Positions 25,845-34,505 of a stretch of DNA of 44,922 bases are shown piece by piece; the stretch's first letter is position 1; every line of letters starts with the position of its first letter. The stretch is from positions 1 to 44,922 of IMG/VR virus record IMGVR_UViG_3300032240_001350. One strand, written 5' to 3'. The notes beneath the pieces are model-generated. The model was not told the origin of the DNA. It saw only the letters and a list, made by a program, of their open reading frames with translations, and ran no database searches. This DNA is from a virus. Both the position numbers and the translations under genes were made by a program.

Positions 25845-26019
25845 CTATATTAAGAAAGTAATTCAAGATATGATAGATCAACTATGGACACTCCTAGGTA
25901 TGTTTATTGCTTGGGTAGTCCTTGATGGTTCCGCAAAGACGATAGTGGGGTATGCAATTATATGTACATTAATTGCATGGGCAATCACATATCCGATTAG
26001 AAATAGAGATGATGAATAA
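25837..26019 (+). CDS. Small two-helix membrane protein (holin-like)
   Basis: 60 residues with two hydrophobic segments: LWTLLGMFIAWVVL (about 17-30) and TIVGYAIICTLIAWAITYPI (about 35-54), then a charged end NRDDE. The SD AAGGAGA lies upstream of the ATG, which overlaps the previous gene. The next gene is also a two-helix protein and shares a base with this stop. A holin/antiholin pair is a reasonable reading. The pair is far from the CHAP lysin at 34543, so the assignment stays tentative. Confidence 0.5.
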   Translation: MINYIKKVIQDMIDQLWTLLGMFIAWVVLDGSAKTIVGYAIICTLIAWAITYPIRNRDDE

Positions 26020-26306
26020 TGGCAACTAAAAAAATAGCAGCAGAAGCACCCAAGAAAGAAAACTCACAAAAAGCATTAACAAATATCCTAATGAGAATTT
26101 TGGCGGTATTTGCAGCATCAGGACTATCAGTCCTAGGAGCAGGAGCAGTGGTAGGAATAGATACAATTCAGGCAGTATTCTTAGCAGGATTGCTTGGTGT
26201 AGCCAGCGTAATTGAAAGGCTTGCAAGGGCTTTCTTAGACGATGGAAGACTATCTCTTACAGAGATAAATGAGGCTTTTAAGTCAGTAGATAAAAAGGCT
26301 AATTAG
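26019..26306 (+). CDS. Putative holin
   Basis: 95 residues. After a basic, Ala-rich N-terminus come two hydrophobic helices: ILAVFAASGLSVLGAGAVVG (about 28-47) and TIQAVFLAGLLGVASVI (about 49-65). An acidic amphipathic C-terminus follows (RAFLDDGRLSLTEINEAF). This looks like the small two-helix holins annotated in many actinophages. It would form membrane lesions that let the endolysin reach peptidoglycan. A terminator-like hairpin follows. Confidence 0.6.
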   Translation: MATKKIAAEAPKKENSQKALTNILMRILAVFAASGLSVLGAGAVVGIDTIQAVFLAGLLGVASVIERLARAFLDDGRLSLTEINEAFKSVDKKAN

Positions 26307-26316
26307 TCATTAATTG

Positions 26317-26369
26317 AAAAACCCCTCTGGATGGTATACTTATAAGGTATCTATATAGAGGGGCTTTTC
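26317..26369 (+). terminator. Terminator-like hairpin enclosing a promoter
   Basis: CCCCTCT at 26322-26328 pairs with AGAGGGG at 26357-26363; A residues before and TTTTCTTT after extend the fold. The loop is long (28 bases) and contains TGGTATACT, plus a possible inner ATAC/GTAT pair. It lies 10 bases after the holin stop. The long loop weakens the terminator call. Confidence 0.4.
26332..26340 (+). promoter_or_regulatory. Extended -10 promoter inside a hairpin loop
   Basis: TGGTATACT. The expected start near 26347 leaves a leader of about 24 bases, in which AGAGGGG (the 3' arm of the hairpin) lies 7 bases before the TTG at 26371 and can serve as SD. Confidence 0.5.
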
Positions 26370-26370
26370 T

Positions 26371-27162
26371 TTGCGCTATCAAATTCAAGACACGCTACAA
26401 AAAAATTTATTCAGAAAAAGCATAGTCTTTGGTGCTTTGCCAATTGGAGATCCAGCAGATATTAGTTTATCTGCTATTGAGCATATCAAAACTGCAGATG
26501 TTATTTTAGTAGAAAATCATAGACAGTTTTCTAGATTGATTAATGCTATCAACTATCTTAATATTGAAGAGAGACCAAACATAAATCCAAGAGGTATCAT
26601 ACTTCAATACAACCTTGAGTCTGATCCTGCTCACGTTGATGATATGAAAAATGTTTTGCTTGAGCATGTAAAAAATAGAAAAAAAATATTTGCTGTTTCA
26701 GATGAGGGATCTTCAGTTTTTCTTGAGCCTATGTCACAATTCAAGTCAATGCTTGTAGAGATGAATATTTCTTATCAAGTTTTATCTGGCCCCAACTCAG
26801 TTATAAGTGCAGTAGTTAATGGAAAGCGAAATGTTCATTCATTTTATTTTGCTGGCAACTTTCAACATTTATCAAATAAAGAAAAAACATTTGAAGAAAT
26901 TAGATTATTAAATAAACCAACAGTCATCATATTAAAATCTAAAGGTTTAGAAGAGGTAATAAAAGAATTATCAGATAATTTTAGTAATGATTGGGAAGCA
27001 GATTTTCAGATGAATCTTAGCATGGACACTGAAGTCCATATTGATGGGGTCTTTGACAAGATACTAGAATTCGTGTATACTAATAGTAGGCTTTGGTCAG
27101 AAGAAGACGAAATACAAAAAGTAATAATAACACTATATCCGAAAGGTTACCACGCAGAATGA
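26371..27162 (+). CDS. RsmI-like SAM-dependent (tetrapyrrole-methylase family) methyltransferase
   Basis: 263 residues, TTG start with AGAGGGG as SD. The order of motifs matches RsmI, which 2'-O-methylates C1402 of 16S rRNA: PIGDPADISLSAIE (24-37), IKTADVILVENHRQ, a hinge, FAVSDEGSSVFLEP (equivalent of SDAGTPGISDPG), then QVLSGPNSVISAVVNG and FYFAGNFQHLSNKEK. The consensus SDAGTP is altered to SDEGSS, so the donor pocket differs. The length matches bacterial RsmI (about 270-290). Its stop overlaps a proteasome-like gene by ATGA. Host ribosome modification is the natural guess; a different substrate is possible. Confidence 0.78.
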   Translation: MRYQIQDTLQKNLFRKSIVFGALPIGDPADISLSAIEHIKTADVILVENHRQFSRLINAINYLNIEERPNINPRGIILQYNLESDPAHVDDMKNVLLEHVKNRKKIFAVSDEGSSVFLEPMSQFKSMLVEMNISYQVLSGPNSVISAVVNGKRNVHSFYFAGNFQHLSNKEKTFEEIRLLNKPTVIILKSKGLEEVIKELSDNFSNDWEADFQMNLSMDTEVHIDGVFDKILEFVYTNSRLWSEEDEIQKVIITLYPKGYHAE

Positions 27163-27683
27163 CTTGTATTGCTGTAGTAAAACATGAAGACAAGATCTAT
27201 ATGGCTGGAGATCGTGGCGCCTCTGACGATGGAACTATCTTAGCGCTTGATGCTCCAAAAGTTTGGAAGATTGGACCATACCTAATTGGTTATGCTGGAT
27301 CGATGGACGGAGAAAGAATTAGATATAACTTTAAACCCTCTACCCCAAACATAAGAGACACTGATAAGTTTATGCAGACTAAGTTTATTAAAGAACTTAA
27401 AGAATTCTACAATGAGTTTTGGGTTGACACTTCAAAAGAAGGAGACCTTGGATTAATAATTGCAATTCGTGGACAAATATATGAACATAGTTCTGCAGAC
27501 ATGTCTTTATCTAAATACACATTACCATACCTTGCTATGGGTTCAGGAGCAGAGTATGCTTACGGTGTTCTATATGCAACAGATAAACAAAAAAATGCAA
27601 GGAGCAGAGTTCTTCAAGCAGTAAATGCTGCAATAAAATTTAACCCATCATGCATGGGGCCAGTTGACATTGTCAGTGTGTAG
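27159..27683 (+). CDS. Proteasome-beta/HslV-type Ntn-hydrolase
   Basis: 174 residues from the ATG at 27159; an in-frame codon at 27093 lies inside the upstream gene. Met1 is followed by Thr2, so methionine aminopeptidase would expose Thr as residue 1. Counted that way, Asp17 (MAGDRGASD) and Lys33 (DAPKVWKIG) fall exactly at the catalytic positions of proteasome beta subunits and HslV. A MGSGAEYAYGVLYA stretch matches the GSG/Ser129 loop. There is no propeptide, as in HslV. It probably forms a ring peptidase or cleaves a small substrate. No ATPase partner is visible in the window. Confidence 0.82.
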   Translation: MTCIAVVKHEDKIYMAGDRGASDDGTILALDAPKVWKIGPYLIGYAGSMDGERIRYNFKPSTPNIRDTDKFMQTKFIKELKEFYNEFWVDTSKEGDLGLIIAIRGQIYEHSSADMSLSKYTLPYLAMGSGAEYAYGVLYATDKQKNARSRVLQAVNAAIKFNPSCMGPVDIVSV

Positions 27684-27686
27684 GGG

Positions 27687-27692
27687 TATACT
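27687..27692 (+). promoter_or_regulatory. -10 promoter, leaderless type (TATACT)
   Basis: GGGTATACT begins directly after the TAG stop of the Ntn-hydrolase gene. Six bases separate TATACT from ATG 27699. No SD is possible in that space. Confidence 0.55.
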
Positions 27693-27698
27693 TATAAT

Positions 27699-27905
27699 AT
27701 GAACTACAGTGACGAAGAAGATTTATCTCCAGAAGAGCAAGAGTTTGGCATATGGCTTTCAAATGGTATTGATCGGGGCTGGGTAACACCACCTTATTGC
27801 AATACACATGATGGCGGTTATGCTTATATGGGTGAAGAAGAAATAGAAGAATGGGAAGAGGGCGGAGACCCTTGTCAGCATGTCATCAGATTGATGATAT
27901 CTTAA
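27699..27905 (+). CDS. Small acidic protein
   Basis: 68 residues, very acidic (EEDLSPEEQEF, GEEEIEEWEEGGDP). A central motif, WVTPPYCNTHDGGYAYMG, and a later DPCQHVIRL give two Cys-x-x-His/Cys-x-His pairs that could bind a metal. The strong negative charge would also fit a DNA mimic. The start is fixed by the promoter 6 bases upstream. I recall similar short proteins in actinobacteria and their phages, without a known role. Confidence 0.55.
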   Translation: MNYSDEEDLSPEEQEFGIWLSNGIDRGWVTPPYCNTHDGGYAYMGEEEIEEWEEGGDPCQHVIRLMIS

Positions 27906-27921
27906 AATGAAAAGGAATAAA

Positions 27922-28695
27922 ATGAAAAAGATCGTAGCATTAGTAGCAGTATTGTTTTCAGTTGTAGTACCAGTACAATCACAAGCAGCAGACACTAAGT
28001 CTCTTGTAATTATTGACTCTTATTTTCAGTCAAATATTGCACAAAATCCAATCACATCAACGGGTGCAGCATGTGCACAGTCAAAACCAATTGCAAACGC
28101 AAAGGCGTCTGATCCGTATAATCATGGAACAGCAATGTATGCTGTAGCAAAATTGCAAAATCCTTCTATTAGTATTATTCCAATTTGTGCAGCAAACGCA
28201 CAATCTGACGTTTTTCCAAGCCAACTTATTTCATCTCTTAATTGGGTAAAGAGCAATAGGAGTAAGGTAAAGGCTGTTTCAATTTCACTAACATTTAATA
28301 AGACCAGTTTAGAATGTACTCCATTTGGACCAGTCAATACACCACAGGCTCGTCTTGCAGACGATGTTGTAATTCGATCACTGATCAACGACTTAGAGTC
28401 TTATGGTATTCCAGTATTTGCAGCAGCAGGTAATGATACTAACAAGTCTGTCAGTTATCCAGGATGTATTGCTAATACTTTAGCAGTTGCACATGCTGAT
28501 GAAAAAGGAAATGCTATATCACGATTTGATGCCAACACAGATTACTTTGCTCGACTATCTTTGGATGGTACCAAATGGGTATACAATACGACTTTTGGTC
28601 CTGTATCACAGACATCATCATCAGCAACAGCAGCAGTAGCATCAATGTGGGTAACGGCTAATACACCAAAGGGAATTGTTAACCCAATTTCCTAG
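27922..28695 (+). CDS. Secreted subtilisin-like serine protease
   Basis: 257 residues from ATG 27922, which has AAAGGA about 7 bases upstream; ATG 27907 is in frame but lacks an SD. A signal peptide (KKIVALVAVLFSVVVPVQSQA) is followed by an S8 subtilase core: Asp32 (VIIDSYF), His68 (YNHGTAMYAV), the oxyanion Asn in FAAAGNDTN, and a Ser in QTSSSATAAVAS. The consensus GTSxA has Gln in place of the Gly. The core is small and has no prodomain. It probably acts outside the membrane on host envelope proteins, on the phage's exported proteins, or after lysis. Confidence 0.78.
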   Translation: MKKIVALVAVLFSVVVPVQSQAADTKSLVIIDSYFQSNIAQNPITSTGAACAQSKPIANAKASDPYNHGTAMYAVAKLQNPSISIIPICAANAQSDVFPSQLISSLNWVKSNRSKVKAVSISLTFNKTSLECTPFGPVNTPQARLADDVVIRSLINDLESYGIPVFAAAGNDTNKSVSYPGCIANTLAVAHADEKGNAISRFDANTDYFARLSLDGTKWVYNTTFGPVSQTSSSATAAVASMWVTANTPKGIVNPIS

Positions 28696-28700
28696 TAGTG

Positions 28701-28706
28701 TATAAT
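28701..28706 (+). promoter_or_regulatory. TATAAT next to tRNA-Asn
   Basis: TATAAT ends at the first base of the tRNA. A start 6-7 bases downstream would fall inside the acceptor stem, so the tRNA may be transcribed from farther upstream. The match may be fortuitous. Confidence 0.25.
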
Positions 28707-28778
28707 GGTCTGTAACTCAGTTGGTAGAGTGCCGAACTGTTAATTCGGATGTCGCAGGATCGAAACCTGCCAGACCAG
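28706..28778 (+). tRNA. tRNA-Asn (anticodon GUU)
   Basis: The cloverleaf folds fully: acceptor TGGTCTG (28706-28712) with CAGACCA (28771-28777), D stem ACTC/GAGT, anticodon stem CCGAA/TTCGG with loop CTGTTAA (anticodon GTT at 28739-28741), T stem GCAGG/CCTGC. The T loop reads ATCGAAA, with A in place of the usual T54. The discriminator is G, and CCA is not encoded. It lies between the protease gene and an accessory operon. It probably helps translate an Asn-rich, A+T-rich phage proteome. Confidence 0.93.
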
Positions 28779-28791
28779 CAAGGAAGTAAAG

Positions 28792-29466
28792 ATGGAACAA
28801 CCACTTATGCTTCACGAAGAAGACAAATATGACTTCAACGTGTGGTACACAACATTTGATCCAGTATTCTCTGAGATCAGTAAAAAGTCTAGACTGCCTG
28901 AAAAATGGACTAGGTATGAGTATGTCCTAAAAGGAAAGTACTCTGATTCAGTAATAAAGCCAATCAATAAATACGTAGAGGCTCTGTATCCAAAACCAGA
29001 ACTGATATCTATAATTGGCAATACTGTTACCTTAAGACAAGGAAATCACGCAGAGTTCTTTTTGTTAATAAAAAAAAGCGGGGAGTTTTTTAATTTAGAT
29101 CGACCTTGGATGAGACAATACTATAGAACAAAAAACACCTATGATAGACCAGAAGATTGCTTCTTGGGATACTATAAGTTTTACGTTCCTTGGTTTATTG
29201 ATGAGGACATTGAGGTAAGGTATGCAAGACCTGACGTGGAGTCTCCGTTTTTTATACAGGAGTCCTCTGCTTCTTATAAAAAAACAGACAAAACTGAGGT
29301 ATACATTGAGCCACACTTTGTTGACTTTAGTTTTAAGAATACTGGGAAGCATATGGTTTCTCCAAAGTTTGGCAAGATTAAAAGGCAGCAACCCATGTTT
29401 GATATGGTTTTTGAAGCAGATGATATAATGATACAGAGAGTTAGGGACTTCTATGAACAAAATTAA
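28792..29466 (+). CDS. Unknown protein
   Basis: 224 residues, with AAGGAAG upstream of the ATG. It is rich in aromatic and charged residues (FYVPWFIDEDIEVRYARP, then FFIQESS) and has no Cys pairs or transmembrane helix. Its beta-rich look and the phrase YYKFYVPWF suggest a globular enzyme or structural domain, but I recognise no family. It is the first gene after the tRNA and overlaps the next gene by 14 bases. The two following genes are paralogues of each other; this one shows at most weak resemblance to them. Confidence 0.5.
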   Translation: MEQPLMLHEEDKYDFNVWYTTFDPVFSEISKKSRLPEKWTRYEYVLKGKYSDSVIKPINKYVEALYPKPELISIIGNTVTLRQGNHAEFFLLIKKSGEFFNLDRPWMRQYYRTKNTYDRPEDCFLGYYKFYVPWFIDEDIEVRYARPDVESPFFIQESSASYKKTDKTEVYIEPHFVDFSFKNTGKHMVSPKFGKIKRQQPMFDMVFEADDIMIQRVRDFYEQN

Positions 29467-30175
29467 ATTTTACCCATTCAGTGAAAAAACTCAAGCGTTT
29501 GCTCCTGAGCCAATTCCAGCGTCTAGACTTGTACCAAAATGGTATAGGGATCAGCCTGGATCTATTGATGACGCAAAGTTTTTGCCAATGGGAAATGTAT
29601 CATCTACAGTAAAAAGATGCATGCCTGTATTTGATTATATGACTGCTGGATATTTGATTTTATGTCCATGTGATATTTATATTGATGCAACAAACCCAGA
29701 AAAAATTGAATGGTCAGTACCAATTACATTGAAGCAATTTGCAGGGGACATGATATCAAAGCATGATGTTCAGCAATATTCTCATTATCCAATAGACAAA
29801 GAACTTTATCATAAAGATCTATTTAGAATTATGCCATTTTATTCTGTTGGAACAGCAGATGGATATAGTTCTATCTTTATGAATCCAGTTCACAAAGATT
29901 CCTCTCCATTCTATGCAATTGGTGCATATGTAGACACTGATAAGTTTATTAGTGATGGTCATCTATCTTTCCTTGTTAGGAAAAATTTTAAGGGTGTAAT
30001 CAAACAAGGTACACCACTTGTTCAGGTAATTCCAGTTCAGCGTGAAGATTGGGAAATGGAGATTGTTGAAAACAAAGAGGCTAATGACATCATAACAAAG
30101 CAAAGACTTAATGTAAGAAGTAATTTTGTTAATGCTTATAAGTTAAAGTTTAGAAGTAAGAAAGAATTTAAGTGA
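29453..30175 (+). CDS. Unknown protein, paralogue of the next gene
   Basis: 240 residues. It shares with the next gene an N-terminal pattern (PIPASRLVPKWYRD), a KRCMPVFDYMTAGYLIL motif, an acidic segment (CDIYIDATNP), and a C-terminal GTPLVQVIPVQREDWEMEI. The last segment suggests a beta-strand-turn capped by a conserved ED-W. No known catalytic signature is visible. The 14-base overlap upstream and GTGA overlap downstream indicate one operon. I recall similar sequences in environmental phages but cannot name a function. Confidence 0.55.
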   Translation: MNKIKFYPFSEKTQAFAPEPIPASRLVPKWYRDQPGSIDDAKFLPMGNVSSTVKRCMPVFDYMTAGYLILCPCDIYIDATNPEKIEWSVPITLKQFAGDMISKHDVQQYSHYPIDKELYHKDLFRIMPFYSVGTADGYSSIFMNPVHKDSSPFYAIGAYVDTDKFISDGHLSFLVRKNFKGVIKQGTPLVQVIPVQREDWEMEIVENKEANDIITKQRLNVRSNFVNAYKLKFRSKKEFK

Positions 30176-30942
30176 AGAAACCTTTATCGATAAAGTTTAC
30201 TCCAGGGTTTACAGGGCATGATGGTAGACTAACTGCTCCAGTTCCAGGAGTAAGCACTGTTCCAGAGTGGTATAAAAGTTTAGCAAGGTTTGATAAATCA
30301 AATGATGATATAACGCTTGGAGTAAAAAATAATATAGGAACAGATGGCGCAATGGTTGCAACAAAAATGTGTATGCCATTCTTTGATGCACTTACTGGTG
30401 GCTACATGTACGTATTAGAAGATGACGTGTATGTAGATCAGGATGAAAATGGTAAGCCTATTGTGTCTTGGAAGGGCGAGGTCATGATGATAGATAAGAG
30501 ACCAACAATTGAACTTCCAGTACCAAACAACTGTCATCCAATACATTACGGCTGGAGAATGAACTGGTATTATGAAACACCCCCAGGCTACTCTGTTTTA
30601 ATTACGCATCCAATGAATAGGTTTGATCTGCCATTTTATACTATGTCTGGAATTGTTGAGTCAGATATTTGGGGACTGCCAGTATTTACTGCATTCTTTT
30701 TACAAAAAGATTTTATAGGCTTGATTCCAAAGGGAACTCCTATATTTCAAATAATTCCTTTTAAGCGTGAGGACTGGGAGAGCGAAGTCCTTGAGACTGA
30801 AGAAGATTTAGACAAGCACGAATTAGCAGCAGAAAATAGAAGATCAAGACTTTATGGATATTATAAAGAGACCGCATGGATAAGAAAAAGATTTGGAATT
30901 AAGAATAGTAAAGAGATAGAAATTGACAACGAAAATGAGTAA
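30172..30942 (+). CDS. Unknown protein, paralogue of the previous gene
   Basis: 256 residues, GTG start overlapping the previous TGA. Matching motifs: STVPEWYKSLARF, KMCMPFFDALTGGYMYVL, DDVYVDQDENG, GTPIFQIIPFKREDWESEV. The order and spacing agree with the upstream gene, so this is a tandem duplication that has diverged strongly. The C-terminal ~40 residues are helical and charged. An 8-base overlap joins it to the glycosyltransferase gene, suggesting a shared pathway. Confidence 0.55.
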   Translation: MKKPLSIKFTPGFTGHDGRLTAPVPGVSTVPEWYKSLARFDKSNDDITLGVKNNIGTDGAMVATKMCMPFFDALTGGYMYVLEDDVYVDQDENGKPIVSWKGEVMMIDKRPTIELPVPNNCHPIHYGWRMNWYYETPPGYSVLITHPMNRFDLPFYTMSGIVESDIWGLPVFTAFFLQKDFIGLIPKGTPIFQIIPFKREDWESEVLETEEDLDKHELAAENRRSRLYGYYKETAWIRKRFGIKNSKEIEIDNENE

Positions 30943-31829: not shown

Positions 31830-32423
31830 ATGCATAGAATAACAGTAATAGAGAACTTCATCTCGCCAGAAGATGCTAAGACATTAATTGACGAGCAACT
31901 AAATCCATCAGAAGTAAATGAGTACCCAAAGTATTACGCTAAAAGGTTTGGTGGTACATCGTTACCGTACAATAAAACGGTACAAGATATTATGATCAAG
32001 TATGGTCACAAATCAAATCAGATGCATAAAGAACTCATGGGCTTTAAAAATGACATCTACGTATTTAAGGCGTTTGGATCACACTGGCAAACTGGAACAA
32101 AGGGCGAACTACACATTGATGCACAAGGTCCAGAGCCTTGGATTGAGTTTAGCACAATCATGTATTTAAATAATGAGTCAGAGTATGATGGTGGAAAAAT
32201 TTATTTCCCAAACCAAGAGTTTGAGTATCAACCAAAACAATATTCTGCTGTATTTTTTCCAGGGGCAGGAACAGAGTATATCCATGGAATTACAACTGTA
32301 ACCAGAGGCAATAGGTACACTGGCCTATACATGCATACATCTCTACCAGCGCATGCTGATCCAGAATTCCATCCTGGATTTAATAAATGGAAAGCAAAGG
32401 ACTACCCACTTGTTAAACTATGA
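31830..32423 (+). CDS. Prolyl-4-hydroxylase-like 2OG/Fe(II) oxygenase
   Basis: 197 residues. The iron site is His95-Ile-Asp97 and His152, with Arg162 ten residues later as the 2-oxoglutarate ligand (HGITTVTRGNRY). The strand MYLNNESEYDGGKIYFP is diagnostic of P4H-type oxygenases. These hydroxylate peptides or small molecules. It has a strong AGGAGG SD 4 bases from the ATG and overlaps the next oxygenase gene by 14 bases. Together with the downstream carbamoyltransferase it may hydroxylate a group that is then carbamoylated. Confidence 0.82.
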   Translation: MHRITVIENFISPEDAKTLIDEQLNPSEVNEYPKYYAKRFGGTSLPYNKTVQDIMIKYGHKSNQMHKELMGFKNDIYVFKAFGSHWQTGTKGELHIDAQGPEPWIEFSTIMYLNNESEYDGGKIYFPNQEFEYQPKQYSAVFFPGAGTEYIHGITTVTRGNRYTGLYMHTSLPAHADPEFHPGFNKWKAKDYPLVKL

Positions 32424-33075
32424 AATACTTGATCTTGGAATGGTTTACTATAAAAATATTGTAAACAAGCCAGCAGAGTTAATTAATAAAATTGAAGAAC
32501 TTGATGCTAGGTATCAAGAAGACAAGCCAACACCATTTAAAACTTCTGTAAAGCCTTGGGTCCCATGGACATATGGTGATGGTGCTAATATGCTTACATT
32601 CAATATGCAAAAATTTATACCGCAAGTAAAGGACATTCCAAAGTCTGATATCTATCTAGATGAGCAAACTTTTATTTCTAATGAATTATTTGGAGCACTA
32701 GATAGAACTCTTGAGCACTACTCAACAGAGTTATATCCATTTGCAGAAAAGAATATTAAGTCTAGAGAAAAAACAATGCATCTTCTTAGATATGATAAAA
32801 CTGGACACCTTCCAGCACATCAGGATCAAGGGATAAGCACTAGGGTTTTATCTGTTCTTTTATATCTTAATGATGATTACGAAGGTGGAGAGATAGAATT
32901 TAGACATTCGGGATTAAAATTTAAACCTGAAGCAGGTAGCGTACTATTCTTCCCATCAAACTTCTTATATGTTCATGAGGTATATCCAGTAACAAGGGGT
33001 CCAAGATATGCCCTACCAAACTGGTATCATAACGTCCCACTAGAACAAAAGAGAGATTCTACTGGAGCAGAATGA
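32410..33075 (+). CDS. Prolyl-4-hydroxylase-like 2OG/Fe(II) oxygenase
   Basis: 221 residues from TTG 32410, which has AAAGGA 8 bases upstream; ATG 32440 would cut off a strand that is conserved in the paralogue at 41412. The iron site is His137-Gln-Asp139 and His189, with Arg199. LYLNDDYEGGEIEF is the P4H-type strand, followed by KPEAGSVLFFPS. It overlaps the upstream oxygenase by 14 bases and the carbamoyltransferase by ATGA, so all three are probably translated together. Confidence 0.8.
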   Translation: MLNYEILDLGMVYYKNIVNKPAELINKIEELDARYQEDKPTPFKTSVKPWVPWTYGDGANMLTFNMQKFIPQVKDIPKSDIYLDEQTFISNELFGALDRTLEHYSTELYPFAEKNIKSREKTMHLLRYDKTGHLPAHQDQGISTRVLSVLLYLNDDYEGGEIEFRHSGLKFKPEAGSVLFFPSNFLYVHEVYPVTRGPRYALPNWYHNVPLEQKRDSTGAE

Positions 33076-34505
33076 TAATACTAGGAGTCAATGAAACCAC
33101 ACATGATGCTTCTGTGTCTTTAATTAAAGATGGAGAAATATTGTTTGCTGGTCATGCCGAAAGATATAGCAAGGTAAAGAATGACTGGTTTACAAATAAT
33201 GAACTTATATCTAATGCGCTTGAGTATGGGACGCCAGATCGGATTGCTTATTATGAAAAACCTTTATTAAAAAAATTAAGAATAAAAACACGAGGTGGTT
33301 TTGGTGGAGACTCTCCGTATTACAAATCAAGTGTTTTGCAAAACATACCATCTAAAAATTTTGCACATCATTACTCTCATGCATCTGCAGGATACTATAC
33401 AAGCCCATACAATAATGCAGTCATTGTGGTGCTTGATGCAATAGGAGAATACAACACTTCAACAATCTGGGTTGGAGAAGGAGACAAAATTAGACTTAAG
33501 TATAAGCAAAACTATCCAGTTAGTTTTGGATTATTTTATTCTGCTTTTACACAATTGATTGGGCTTATGCCAAACCAAGAAGAATATATTATGATGGGTA
33601 TGGCTGCATATGGTGATTGGAAAAAATACTATAGAAAAGTTGATGACTATTTTCCTTCCTATACAAAACAAAAATATAACTTTCATAAAGGAATTACTGA
33701 TTGGGGATGGATTGAATCTGAGCAAGATAAATTTGATATAGCAGCAGCAGTTCAAATGGTATACCAGCAAAGACTTAATGATTTTATGCACATGGCTTAT
33801 ATTCTTACTGGAAAAGAAAATCTTGTATTTATGGGTGGGTGTGCATTAAATTCATCAGCCAATACGCTTCTATGGAACATCTTTGATGATGTTTGGATTA
33901 TGCCAAATCCAGGCGATGCTGGCAGTTCGTTAGGTGCAGCAGCAGCAATGTATGGATCTCATTTAAATTGGAAAAGTCCTTATCTTGGATATGATCTTAA
34001 AGGAGAATATCCAGTTGATAAAATTATTTCGGGAATATTAAAAGATGGAATCGTAGCAGTAGCATCAGGAAGAGCAGAGTATGGTCCAAGAGCATTAGGG
34101 AATAGAAGTATTCTTGCTGATCCAAGAGATCCATTAATAAAAGACAAAGTTAATCTAATTAAGCAGAGAGAACTATTTAGGCCATTTGCTCCAGTTGTTA
34201 TGGAGGAGTTTGCAGACAAGTGGTTTGATATGGACTTTGATTCTCCGTATATGCAGTATACGGTTAAATGTTTACAGCCAGATAAAATACCATCAGTGGT
34301 ACATAAAGATGGAACGTCAAGGGTCCAGACCGTAAATAAAGATCAACACCGTGGCTTGTGGAGGACTTTGAATAAGTTTTACTTACAGACTGGGGTGCCA
34401 GTTCTTCTTAATACTAGCCTTAATATTAAAGGCCAGCCACTACTCAATGATGAACTAGACATTCAAGCATGGGAAAAAGCATACAACTTTACAATTACAC
34501 GCTAA
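33072..34505 (+). CDS. NodU/CmcH-family carbamoyltransferase
   Basis: 477 residues. Motifs follow the family: GVNETTHDASVSLIKDGEI at the N-terminus, HHYSHASAGYYTS (metal His), FMGGCALNSSAN, NPGDAGSSLGAAAA, and the C-terminal SGRAEYGPRALGNRSIL. These enzymes use carbamoyl phosphate and ATP to carbamoylate hydroxyl groups of sugars, antibiotics or, in some phages, modified nucleobases. The upstream oxygenases and glycosyltransferase would fit a hydroxylated or glycosylated acceptor. It is slightly shorter than many bacterial members (about 550-600). Confidence 0.88.
   Translation: MIILGVNETTHDASVSLIKDGEILFAGHAERYSKVKNDWFTNNELISNALEYGTPDRIAYYEKPLLKKLRIKTRGGFGGDSPYYKSSVLQNIPSKNFAHHYSHASAGYYTSPYNNAVIVVLDAIGEYNTSTIWVGEGDKIRLKYKQNYPVSFGLFYSAFTQLIGLMPNQEEYIMMGMAAYGDWKKYYRKVDDYFPSYTKQKYNFHKGITDWGWIESEQDKFDIAAAVQMVYQQRLNDFMHMAYILTGKENLVFMGGCALNSSANTLLWNIFDDVWIMPNPGDAGSSLGAAAAMYGSHLNWKSPYLGYDLKGEYPVDKIISGILKDGIVAVASGRAEYGPRALGNRSILADPRDPLIKDKVNLIKQRELFRPFAPVVMEEFADKWFDMDFDSPYMQYTVKCLQPDKIPSVVHKDGTSRVQTVNKDQHRGLWRTLNKFYLQTGVPVLLNTSLNIKGQPLLNDELDIQAWEKAYNFTITR

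Follow-up and report, generated by a model that had tools for sequence, protein, structure and literature searches.

A proteasome-like peptidase gene with a putative promoter of its own, and the RsmI-like methyltransferase gene that touches it, in a phage probably of freshwater Actinobacteria

Do two viral genes that overlap by a few bases also work together? The question is raised by IMG/VR virus record IMGVR_UViG_3300032240_001350, a stretch of 44,922 bases (36.8% G+C) that was analysed whole and is called the window here. On its forward strand, an RsmI-like methyltransferase gene (26371–27162) is followed directly by the gene for a proteasome-like peptidase with an N-terminal threonine (27159–27683), and the ATG of the peptidase at 27159 overlaps the stop of the methyltransferase open reading frame (ORF) as ATGA. 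The original prediction, made from the letters of the window, had placed both ORFs and their overlap correctly, and had proposed a coupled pair that rewires host translation and proteolysis during infection. On balance the evidence favours a different reading, in which the peptidase would be a self-standing, independently transcribed, proteasome-like protein and the methyltransferase a separate accessory gene that happens to touch it. The peptidase family is already known in phages, and by its sequence the methyltransferase is a divergent accessory gene.

The peptidase has 174 amino acids. With its threonine counted as residue 1, Asp17 and Lys33 are present at the spacing of proteasomes and there is no propeptide, as had been predicted. 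The protein matches PF00227 (Proteasome; E=3.2e-5, 24.1 bits with a cut-off of 22.4) and phrog_1040, 'peptidase HslV family' (E=6.9e-22), and is below the equivalog cut-offs for both the 20S proteasome beta subunit (TIGR03690, 16.3 bits vs 191.9) and HslV (TIGR03692, 20.4 bits vs 157.75). In IMG/VR, at least 596 stretches carry a gene for a related protein. The best 80 of these form the close set, and all 80 keep the Thr/Asp/Lys triad. It is also kept in 8 of 8 divergent phage homologues picked from tblastn matches, with the limit that the Moorella phage homologue counts only if its real start lies before the annotated one. The ratio of non-synonymous to synonymous substitution rates (dN/dS) is 0.04–0.15, meaning that the gene is under purifying selection.

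The likely start of the peptidase is ATG 27159, because homology begins at MTCI and because relatives without the RsmI-like gene have a promoter-like hairpin upstream of this position. There is an in-frame TTG at 27093, which would add a propeptide of 22 amino acids; this start was rejected, since the promoter-like hairpin of the relatives lies there.

If the two genes formed a module, they should be found together in other viruses. The upstream ORF was not called in four loci of the close set (L016, L062, L075 and L080; L numbers are locus handles). In two of the four, L016 and L080, the promoter-like sequence is readable all the same, giving 78 informative close loci. The RsmI-like gene is upstream of the peptidase in eight of these (L002–L009) and absent in 70; many of the loci are near-identical, and the counts do not represent independent events. 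Where an upstream ORF was called in the 70, its product is usually a small membrane protein, holin-like or other. Ten IMG/VR contigs, with identities of at least 81%, were found to carry the window-type RsmI-like gene. Two of the 80 close loci, L057 and L063, which are identical over the 3 kb compared, have a diverged RsmI-like gene ca. 1 kb downstream of the peptidase.

More distant relatives gave the same picture. No RsmI-like ORF was found in the stretches examined around 80 divergent peptidase loci, using a profile that recovered 20 of 20 expected loci as a control. In the other direction, none of 33 contig stretches that hold other RsmI-like genes of phages showed a peptidase, using a profile that recovered 90 peptidase loci. 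Both profile searches covered complete ORFs. The 33 stretches came from a pattern built on the DEGMPG motif, seven of them are on contigs already in the analysis, and one locus (L264) gave no ORF in the neighbourhood scans. Three of the seven contigs (those of L026, L033 and L049) carry the peptidase 14–22 kb from an RsmI-like gene. In a sample of 50 of the 82 loci of the phage group, 15 records encode a tetrapyrrole methylase – 10 of the window type and five at other places.

The claimed pair is thus not a conserved module by these sequence comparisons. A search for it across viral genomes, suggested with the original prediction, finds it only in a narrow clade, and a coupled pair was rejected on the neighbourhood counts, with positive controls for both profiles. 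Among the things that would speak against it, the original prediction had itself named a lack of joint conservation in relatives, and such a lack is what the counts show. Because the pair is restricted to this clade and other tetrapyrrole methylases of the group are found elsewhere, we infer that, in a single clade of freshwater phages, the RsmI-like gene was inserted between the peptidase and the promoter-hairpin before it.

The nucleotides upstream of the peptidase suggest how it may be expressed. In 68 of the 70 loci without the RsmI-like gene, a promoter-like sequence, TTGACN-N16..19-TATACT, is found within 90 bases before the peptidase. Most of those inspected are nested in a GC-rich hairpin, the 3' arm of which (e.g. 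GGAGAGGG) looks like a Shine-Dalgarno sequence. In the window, a hairpin of this type lies at 26316–26369 on the forward strand, directly before the start of the RsmI-like gene rather than that of the peptidase, with a TATACT -10-like box inside it (26335–26340) and a possible Shine-Dalgarno sequence in its 3' arm. It folds at -24.9 kcal/mol (z -5.3), and its -35 box is degraded relative to those of the relatives. A further promoter-like site, an exact TTGACA-N17-TATACT, lies within the RsmI-like gene and ahead of the peptidase (27053–27081, forward strand). Both hexamers and their spacing are kept in nine of nine pair-bearing relatives compared.

Folding and covariation were consistent with a conserved hairpin. 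Five of seven sequences (the window and six relatives) fold far better than their shuffles. Within a stem of six pairs in 24 sequences, 95.1% of cells are paired, vs 88.7% in shuffles; five of the six pairs have two-sided changes, which 10 of 500 shuffles reach, and there are 14 cells with two-sided changes, which none of 500 shuffles reach. Every measure drops when the partner is slid by 1–3 columns. The 24 sequences were hand-picked and are related, making this support for the stem, not proof. At gathering thresholds Rfam matched only a tRNA, and no RNA family was found at the hairpin. Hairpin-nested promoter-like sites are also seen at L010:7936–8003, L022:3591–3659 and other places.

A sigma-70-like promoter in a covarying hairpin whose 3' arm carries a putative Shine-Dalgarno sequence could be a combined terminator, promoter and ribosome-site switch in freshwater phages. 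A transcript that reads through from upstream would fold the ribosome site away, while one that begins in the loop would hold only the 3' arm and leave the site open. Normally the peptidase would be transcribed from such a promoter before its start codon, and in the clade with the insertion the promoter-like site at the 3' end of the RsmI-like gene would keep it independently transcribed. The ESAS and SAS elements of cluster K mycobacteriophages are repeats in which an upstream element with an inverted repeat is linked to a translation start. Compared by description only, the window differs in having the -10 box inside the hairpin and the putative Shine-Dalgarno sequence in its 3' arm.

The predicted structure of the peptidase agrees with a proteasome-type fold with Thr1, another part of the original prediction that stands. 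An AlphaFold model made from an alignment of 76 sequences, the window and IMG/VR relatives, had a pLDDT of 92.4 and a pTM of 0.88. The nearest solved folds are BPH (5ovt, Z 20.4, 2.0 Å over 160 residues) and HslV (6kr1, Z 20.3, 2.6 Å over 162 residues); the M. tuberculosis proteasome beta subunit follows at Z 18.9. Across the BPH structures (5ovt, 5ovs, 5ovu) and those of HslV (6kr1, 6kui, 1m4y) the fold is shared over ca. 160–166 residues at Z ca. 19–20, with only ca. 20% identity to the window peptidase. For BPH, and for HslV entries such as 1m4y and 1e94, the alignment begins by pairing residue 2 of the model, the threonine, with residue 1 of the solved chain. In the model, helices 51–57 and 68–87 precede the central strands. 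As modelled, the peptidase has a proteasome-beta fold closest to BPH and HslV. Removal of the methionine, as the Met-Thr start implies, would expose Thr1, which with Asp17 and Lys33 would form the catalytic centre. The residue at the oxyanion hole is less constant: the window has Gly at 46 and Ser at 47, compared with Gly47 of the proteasome family, and the corresponding column of the 76-row alignment holds Ser in 28 rows, Gly in 23 and Thr in 16. In the 70 divergent rows of this alignment the Thr/Asp/Lys triad was imposed by the search pattern, and its invariance there is no evidence.

A partner like those of other ring peptidases was not seen. None of eight phage records, five of them larger than 100 kb, had an AAA_2 unfoldase, though some records may be incomplete and an unfoldase could come from the host; none had an AAA match over the cut-off, with three weak matches below it and the same limit on the records. 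In this the window peptidase differs from HslV, with no HslU-type partner seen in those eight possibly fragmentary records. Single or double rings probably form by self-assembly of the peptidase, which would hydrolyse unfolded polypeptides or peptides without a dedicated unfoldase. The lack of a partner in the eight records would also fit a proteasome-fold enzyme of another kind – a specific amidase, processing enzyme or ligase, perhaps monomeric, like the proteasome homologue connectase. We consider this unlikely, given that the nearest solved folds over ca. 160–165 residues are the ring peptidases BPH and HslV.

The original prediction had described neither gene as standard in phages. For the peptidase this fails: besides the IMG/VR stretches, 155 of 50,697 GenBank phage records match it at E <=0.01, including phages of Salmonella, Escherichia and Vibrio. 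A degenerate pattern gave 80 divergent members among at least 120 stretches, all of which match the family profile; 70 of the 80 entered the alignment, with cut, short and duplicate rows and L170 left out. The window branch is 21–37% identical to the divergent phage members aligned, except for two at 55%. By sequence the window peptidase is a member of the abundant phage family phrog_1040. One phage, Aeromonas phage 2L372X (NC_048770), has two 'peptidase HslV family' genes in tandem. A profile comparison of the peptidase family with the RsmI-like family gave no relation.

The sections of PMC8665760 that deal with phage homologues of the proteasome describe two groups, PPH and AAH, without an AAA+ partner, gene context or known function. 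PPH, a phage-borne subgroup, has ca. 140 residues and is missing helix H2, and in those sections Fuchs, Alva and Lupas (2021) write that their search for AAH in phages specific to Actinobacteria gave none. The window peptidase and phrog_1040 are comparable to both – phage-borne and compact, with the N-terminal Thr, Asp17 and Lys33, no propeptide and no identified AAA+ partner in what those sections report. The window protein has 174 amino acids and could belong to either group. The excerpts of the literature searched contained no tested function for phage proteasome-like peptidases. A lake actinophage with a homologous peptidase, annotated as 'ATP-dependent protease subunit', is Actinomycetia phage DSL-LC01 (OQ999401, Dishui Lake). 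The tblastn match, made with a related protein (L153) as the query, covers 61% of that query. The neighbourhood differs, the peptidase being followed by a WhiB gene, and a word search of the main text of the DSL-LC01 paper (PMC10611076) found no mention of HslV or protease.

The methyltransferase gene encodes 263 amino acids, with a TTG start and a TGA stop. Its product matches the tetrapyrrole methylase family PF00590 (E=4.7e-12, 46.7 bits over a cut-off of 27.8), which with RsmI as the top structural match bears out the RsmI-like label of the original prediction, and is well below the RsmI equivalog cut-off (TIGR00096, 48.4 bits vs 167.9). The best PHROG match of this protein and four other phage RsmI-like proteins has E=0.05. 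Foldseek ranks RsmI first for the AlphaFold model, with 9pzg, an RsmI–30S complex (E=8e-14, TM 0.41), and 5hw4. VIA gives Z ca. 15 with a root-mean-square deviation (rmsd) of ca. 10 Å for 3kwp, 5hw4 and 9pzg (5hw4, Z 15.0 over 220 residues), and single-domain structures fit at 2.1–2.8 Å over 109–114 residues; the high rmsd perhaps comes from a different placement of the two domains. Sequence and model together assign the protein the RsmI, or class III tetrapyrrole-methylase, fold.

The residues that serve RsmI have fared unevenly. In the sections of PMC5053481 on E. coli RsmI, Asp100 and Ala124 are described as necessary for AdoMet, and a contact with the RNA backbone is proposed for Arg174; these residues, with Tyr169 and Glu170, were the ones compared, their roles taken from the same sections. 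The alignment held 25 phage rows and two RsmI proteins of the candidate host order, and nine of the phage rows were inspected. The places of the E. coli residues on the sequence motifs are in part those we take them to be. The window protein shares with RsmI (5hw4, 9pzg) the class III fold, the pocket Asp and the N-terminal P-I-G-(N/D)..D motif. The phage rows inspected keep I-G, and the pocket Asp is kept in all but L057. In the window the equivalent of Asp100 is kept and that of Ala124 is Ser, which is Ala in two other inspected phage rows. Relative to the two host-order proteins the window protein differs in three respects: the (Y/F)E..HR stretch is absent, as it is from the other phage rows inspected (both host-order proteins themselves have Phe at Tyr169), the SAM-loop motif SDAGMP..DPG reads SDEGSSVFLEP, and the C-terminal helical domain, present in both host rows, has no aligned residues in the nine phage rows printed.

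The dN/dS of the gene is 0.03–0.15, a sign of purifying selection which suggests that the protein is functional and in use; a decaying pseudogene was rejected on the same values. Because the residues specific to RsmI and the C-terminal domain have been lost, the protein most likely methylates something other than C1402 of 16S rRNA. That it is a true C1402 2'-O-methyltransferase, topping up or altering host ribosomes during infection, is decidedly improbable. The best structural match, to RsmI and even to its complex with 30S, and the retained Asp would fit that activity, and PMC10810198 describes, in a prophage, a 16S rRNA methyltransferase of a different type. Against it are the sub-threshold score and the changed and missing motifs, and the gene would be redundant, since RsmI itself scores over the cut-off in 93 of the 99 genomes sampled from the candidate host order.

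Other phages have RsmI-like proteins of a related kind (L092, L093, L094 and L241–L273), with an SDEGMPG motif; those compared have no C-terminal domain. Some ORF families are found repeatedly among the genes around them. The family recurs beside a protein of 310–350 amino acids; two of these proteins were tested and had no Pfam match, and the SGNH-like label given by eye to this recurrent upstream neighbour was dropped. There are 41 RsmI-like ORFs in 32 loci, several viral contigs holding more than one, and L256 has two different RsmI-like ORFs in tandem (L256:5590–6354 and the ORF downstream).

It is very improbable that the two genes form a functional pair, co-translated through the ATGA overlap and acting together on host translation and proteolysis. 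Purifying selection on both genes would fit such a pair, as would the overlap. The neighbourhood counts speak against it at the close loci, at the divergent peptidase loci and around the other RsmI-like genes, as does the separate promoter-like site before the peptidase. The two genes also diverge differently in one relative, L009, where the RsmI-like DNA is 80.1% identical to the window and the other measured features are 88.6–95.1% identical, which suggests that the gene there has a history separate from its flanks. The peptidase and the methyltransferase are probably not a coupled system.

Several observations weigh against a self-standing peptidase with an accessory neighbour. The ATGA overlap is kept in all nine contigs of the clade that extend as far as the peptidase (the sequence of the tenth, L091, stops within the RsmI-like gene), and translational coupling within the clade is possible. 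In three other relatives (L002, L007 and L008) at least one flank is as divergent as the RsmI-like gene or more so, and the contrast of L009 is not seen. Two of the seven hairpins folded, those of L028 and L041, are no better than shuffles, and both promoters and hairpin are read from the nucleotide sequence. The model of the RsmI-like protein is mediocre (pLDDT 73, pTM 0.54), and the ring assembly and activity of the peptidase are bare predictions.

The direct neighbours of the pair are of types usual beside the peptidase in relatives. Upstream is a small holin-like membrane protein (26019–26306, forward strand; phrog_443 holin, E=0.0028; phrog_26427, 'nuclease', E=6e-24), and in most loci that lack the RsmI-like gene a relative of it is encoded immediately before the peptidase. 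Downstream is an acidic protein of 68 amino acids (27699–27905, forward strand) with no convincing family match in Pfam or PHROG; most relatives have an ORF of 60–73 amino acids after the peptidase. A second exact TTGACA-N17-TATACT site (27664–27692, forward strand) overlaps the 3' end of the peptidase and precedes this gene, and a similar, varying stretch is found in nine relatives with and six without the RsmI-like gene inspected. A subtilase-like protein (27907–28695, PF00082, 4.7e-5) and a tRNA-Asn (28706–28779) come next, then an accessory region (29453–30942; 32353–34505) with two phrog_7084 paralogues, a 2OG-Fe(II) oxygenase and a Nol-like carbamoyltransferase.

The window is probably from a phage of freshwater Actinobacteria. 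Its terminase and DnaE polymerase are ca. 54–55% identical to those of Streptomyces phages (e.g. Mandalore, Karimac and BillNye), and a 63% identical terminase is found on a contig of a Candidatus Nanopelagicales metagenome-assembled genome (MAG) from Baikal, beside iron-sulphur-assembly and ABC genes. The terminase and the kinship with Streptomyces phages make a link to Nanopelagicales suggestive, without proving it. The peptidase is absent from the stretch of that contig with the terminase. The phage-type terminase on this contig (L274, SHUQ01000020.1), with chromosomal-type genes beside it, is either a prophage remnant or the result of an assembly join.

In the candidate host order, small genomes mostly lack a PrcB match and larger ones mostly have it. 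In 99 genomes, an order-level sample around the candidate host, PrcB is over the cut-off in 62. Three of the 29 genomes of <=1.7 Mb have any PrcB match, vs 61 of the 70 larger ones (26 of 29 vs 9 of 70 are without), and incompleteness of the genomes may contribute to the absences. Acquisition of the peptidase from the likely host was rejected: its profile matches 56 of the 99 genomes and the matches listed fall on PrcB genes. The best of these has 30.6 bits over the N-terminal 50 residues, and a scan of the genome contigs with the window peptidase found no relative. The peptidase family is also found, as noted, in phages of Salmonella, Escherichia and Vibrio, hosts that are not expected to have 20S proteasomes. 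Together with the scarcity of PrcB in the small genomes this leaves interference with a host 20S proteasome, by subunit mixing or by competition for Mpa or Bpa as once suggested for this locus, scarcely credible, even with the structural match to the M. tuberculosis beta subunit and the proteasome-family genes of the Nanopelagicales MAG named above, two side by side, of which one exceeds the PrcB cut-off.

The small genomes of the order, mostly without PrcB, and the wide occurrence of a separately promoted peptidase in the group of lake phages lead to a bolder and quite unlikely idea: that a streamlined cell has no proteasome-type peptidase except the one brought by the phage, a self-sufficient chamber for protein turnover during infection that is gated by the hairpin-promoter, and that an RsmI-derived methyltransferase with a new substrate has invaded this slot in one clade. 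If these phages do infect cells without a proteasome, the viral peptidase would take over protein turnover during infection. The RsmI-like family suggests that an rRNA-methyltransferase fold has been given a changed job in phages. The peptidase group is a compact, conserved and well-modelled example with a regulatory signature, in phages tentatively linked to Nanopelagicales, an order abundant in fresh water; it is of interest for the function of phage proteasome homologues, for the arrangement of a promoter in a hairpin, and for possible small-genome hosts without a proteasome.

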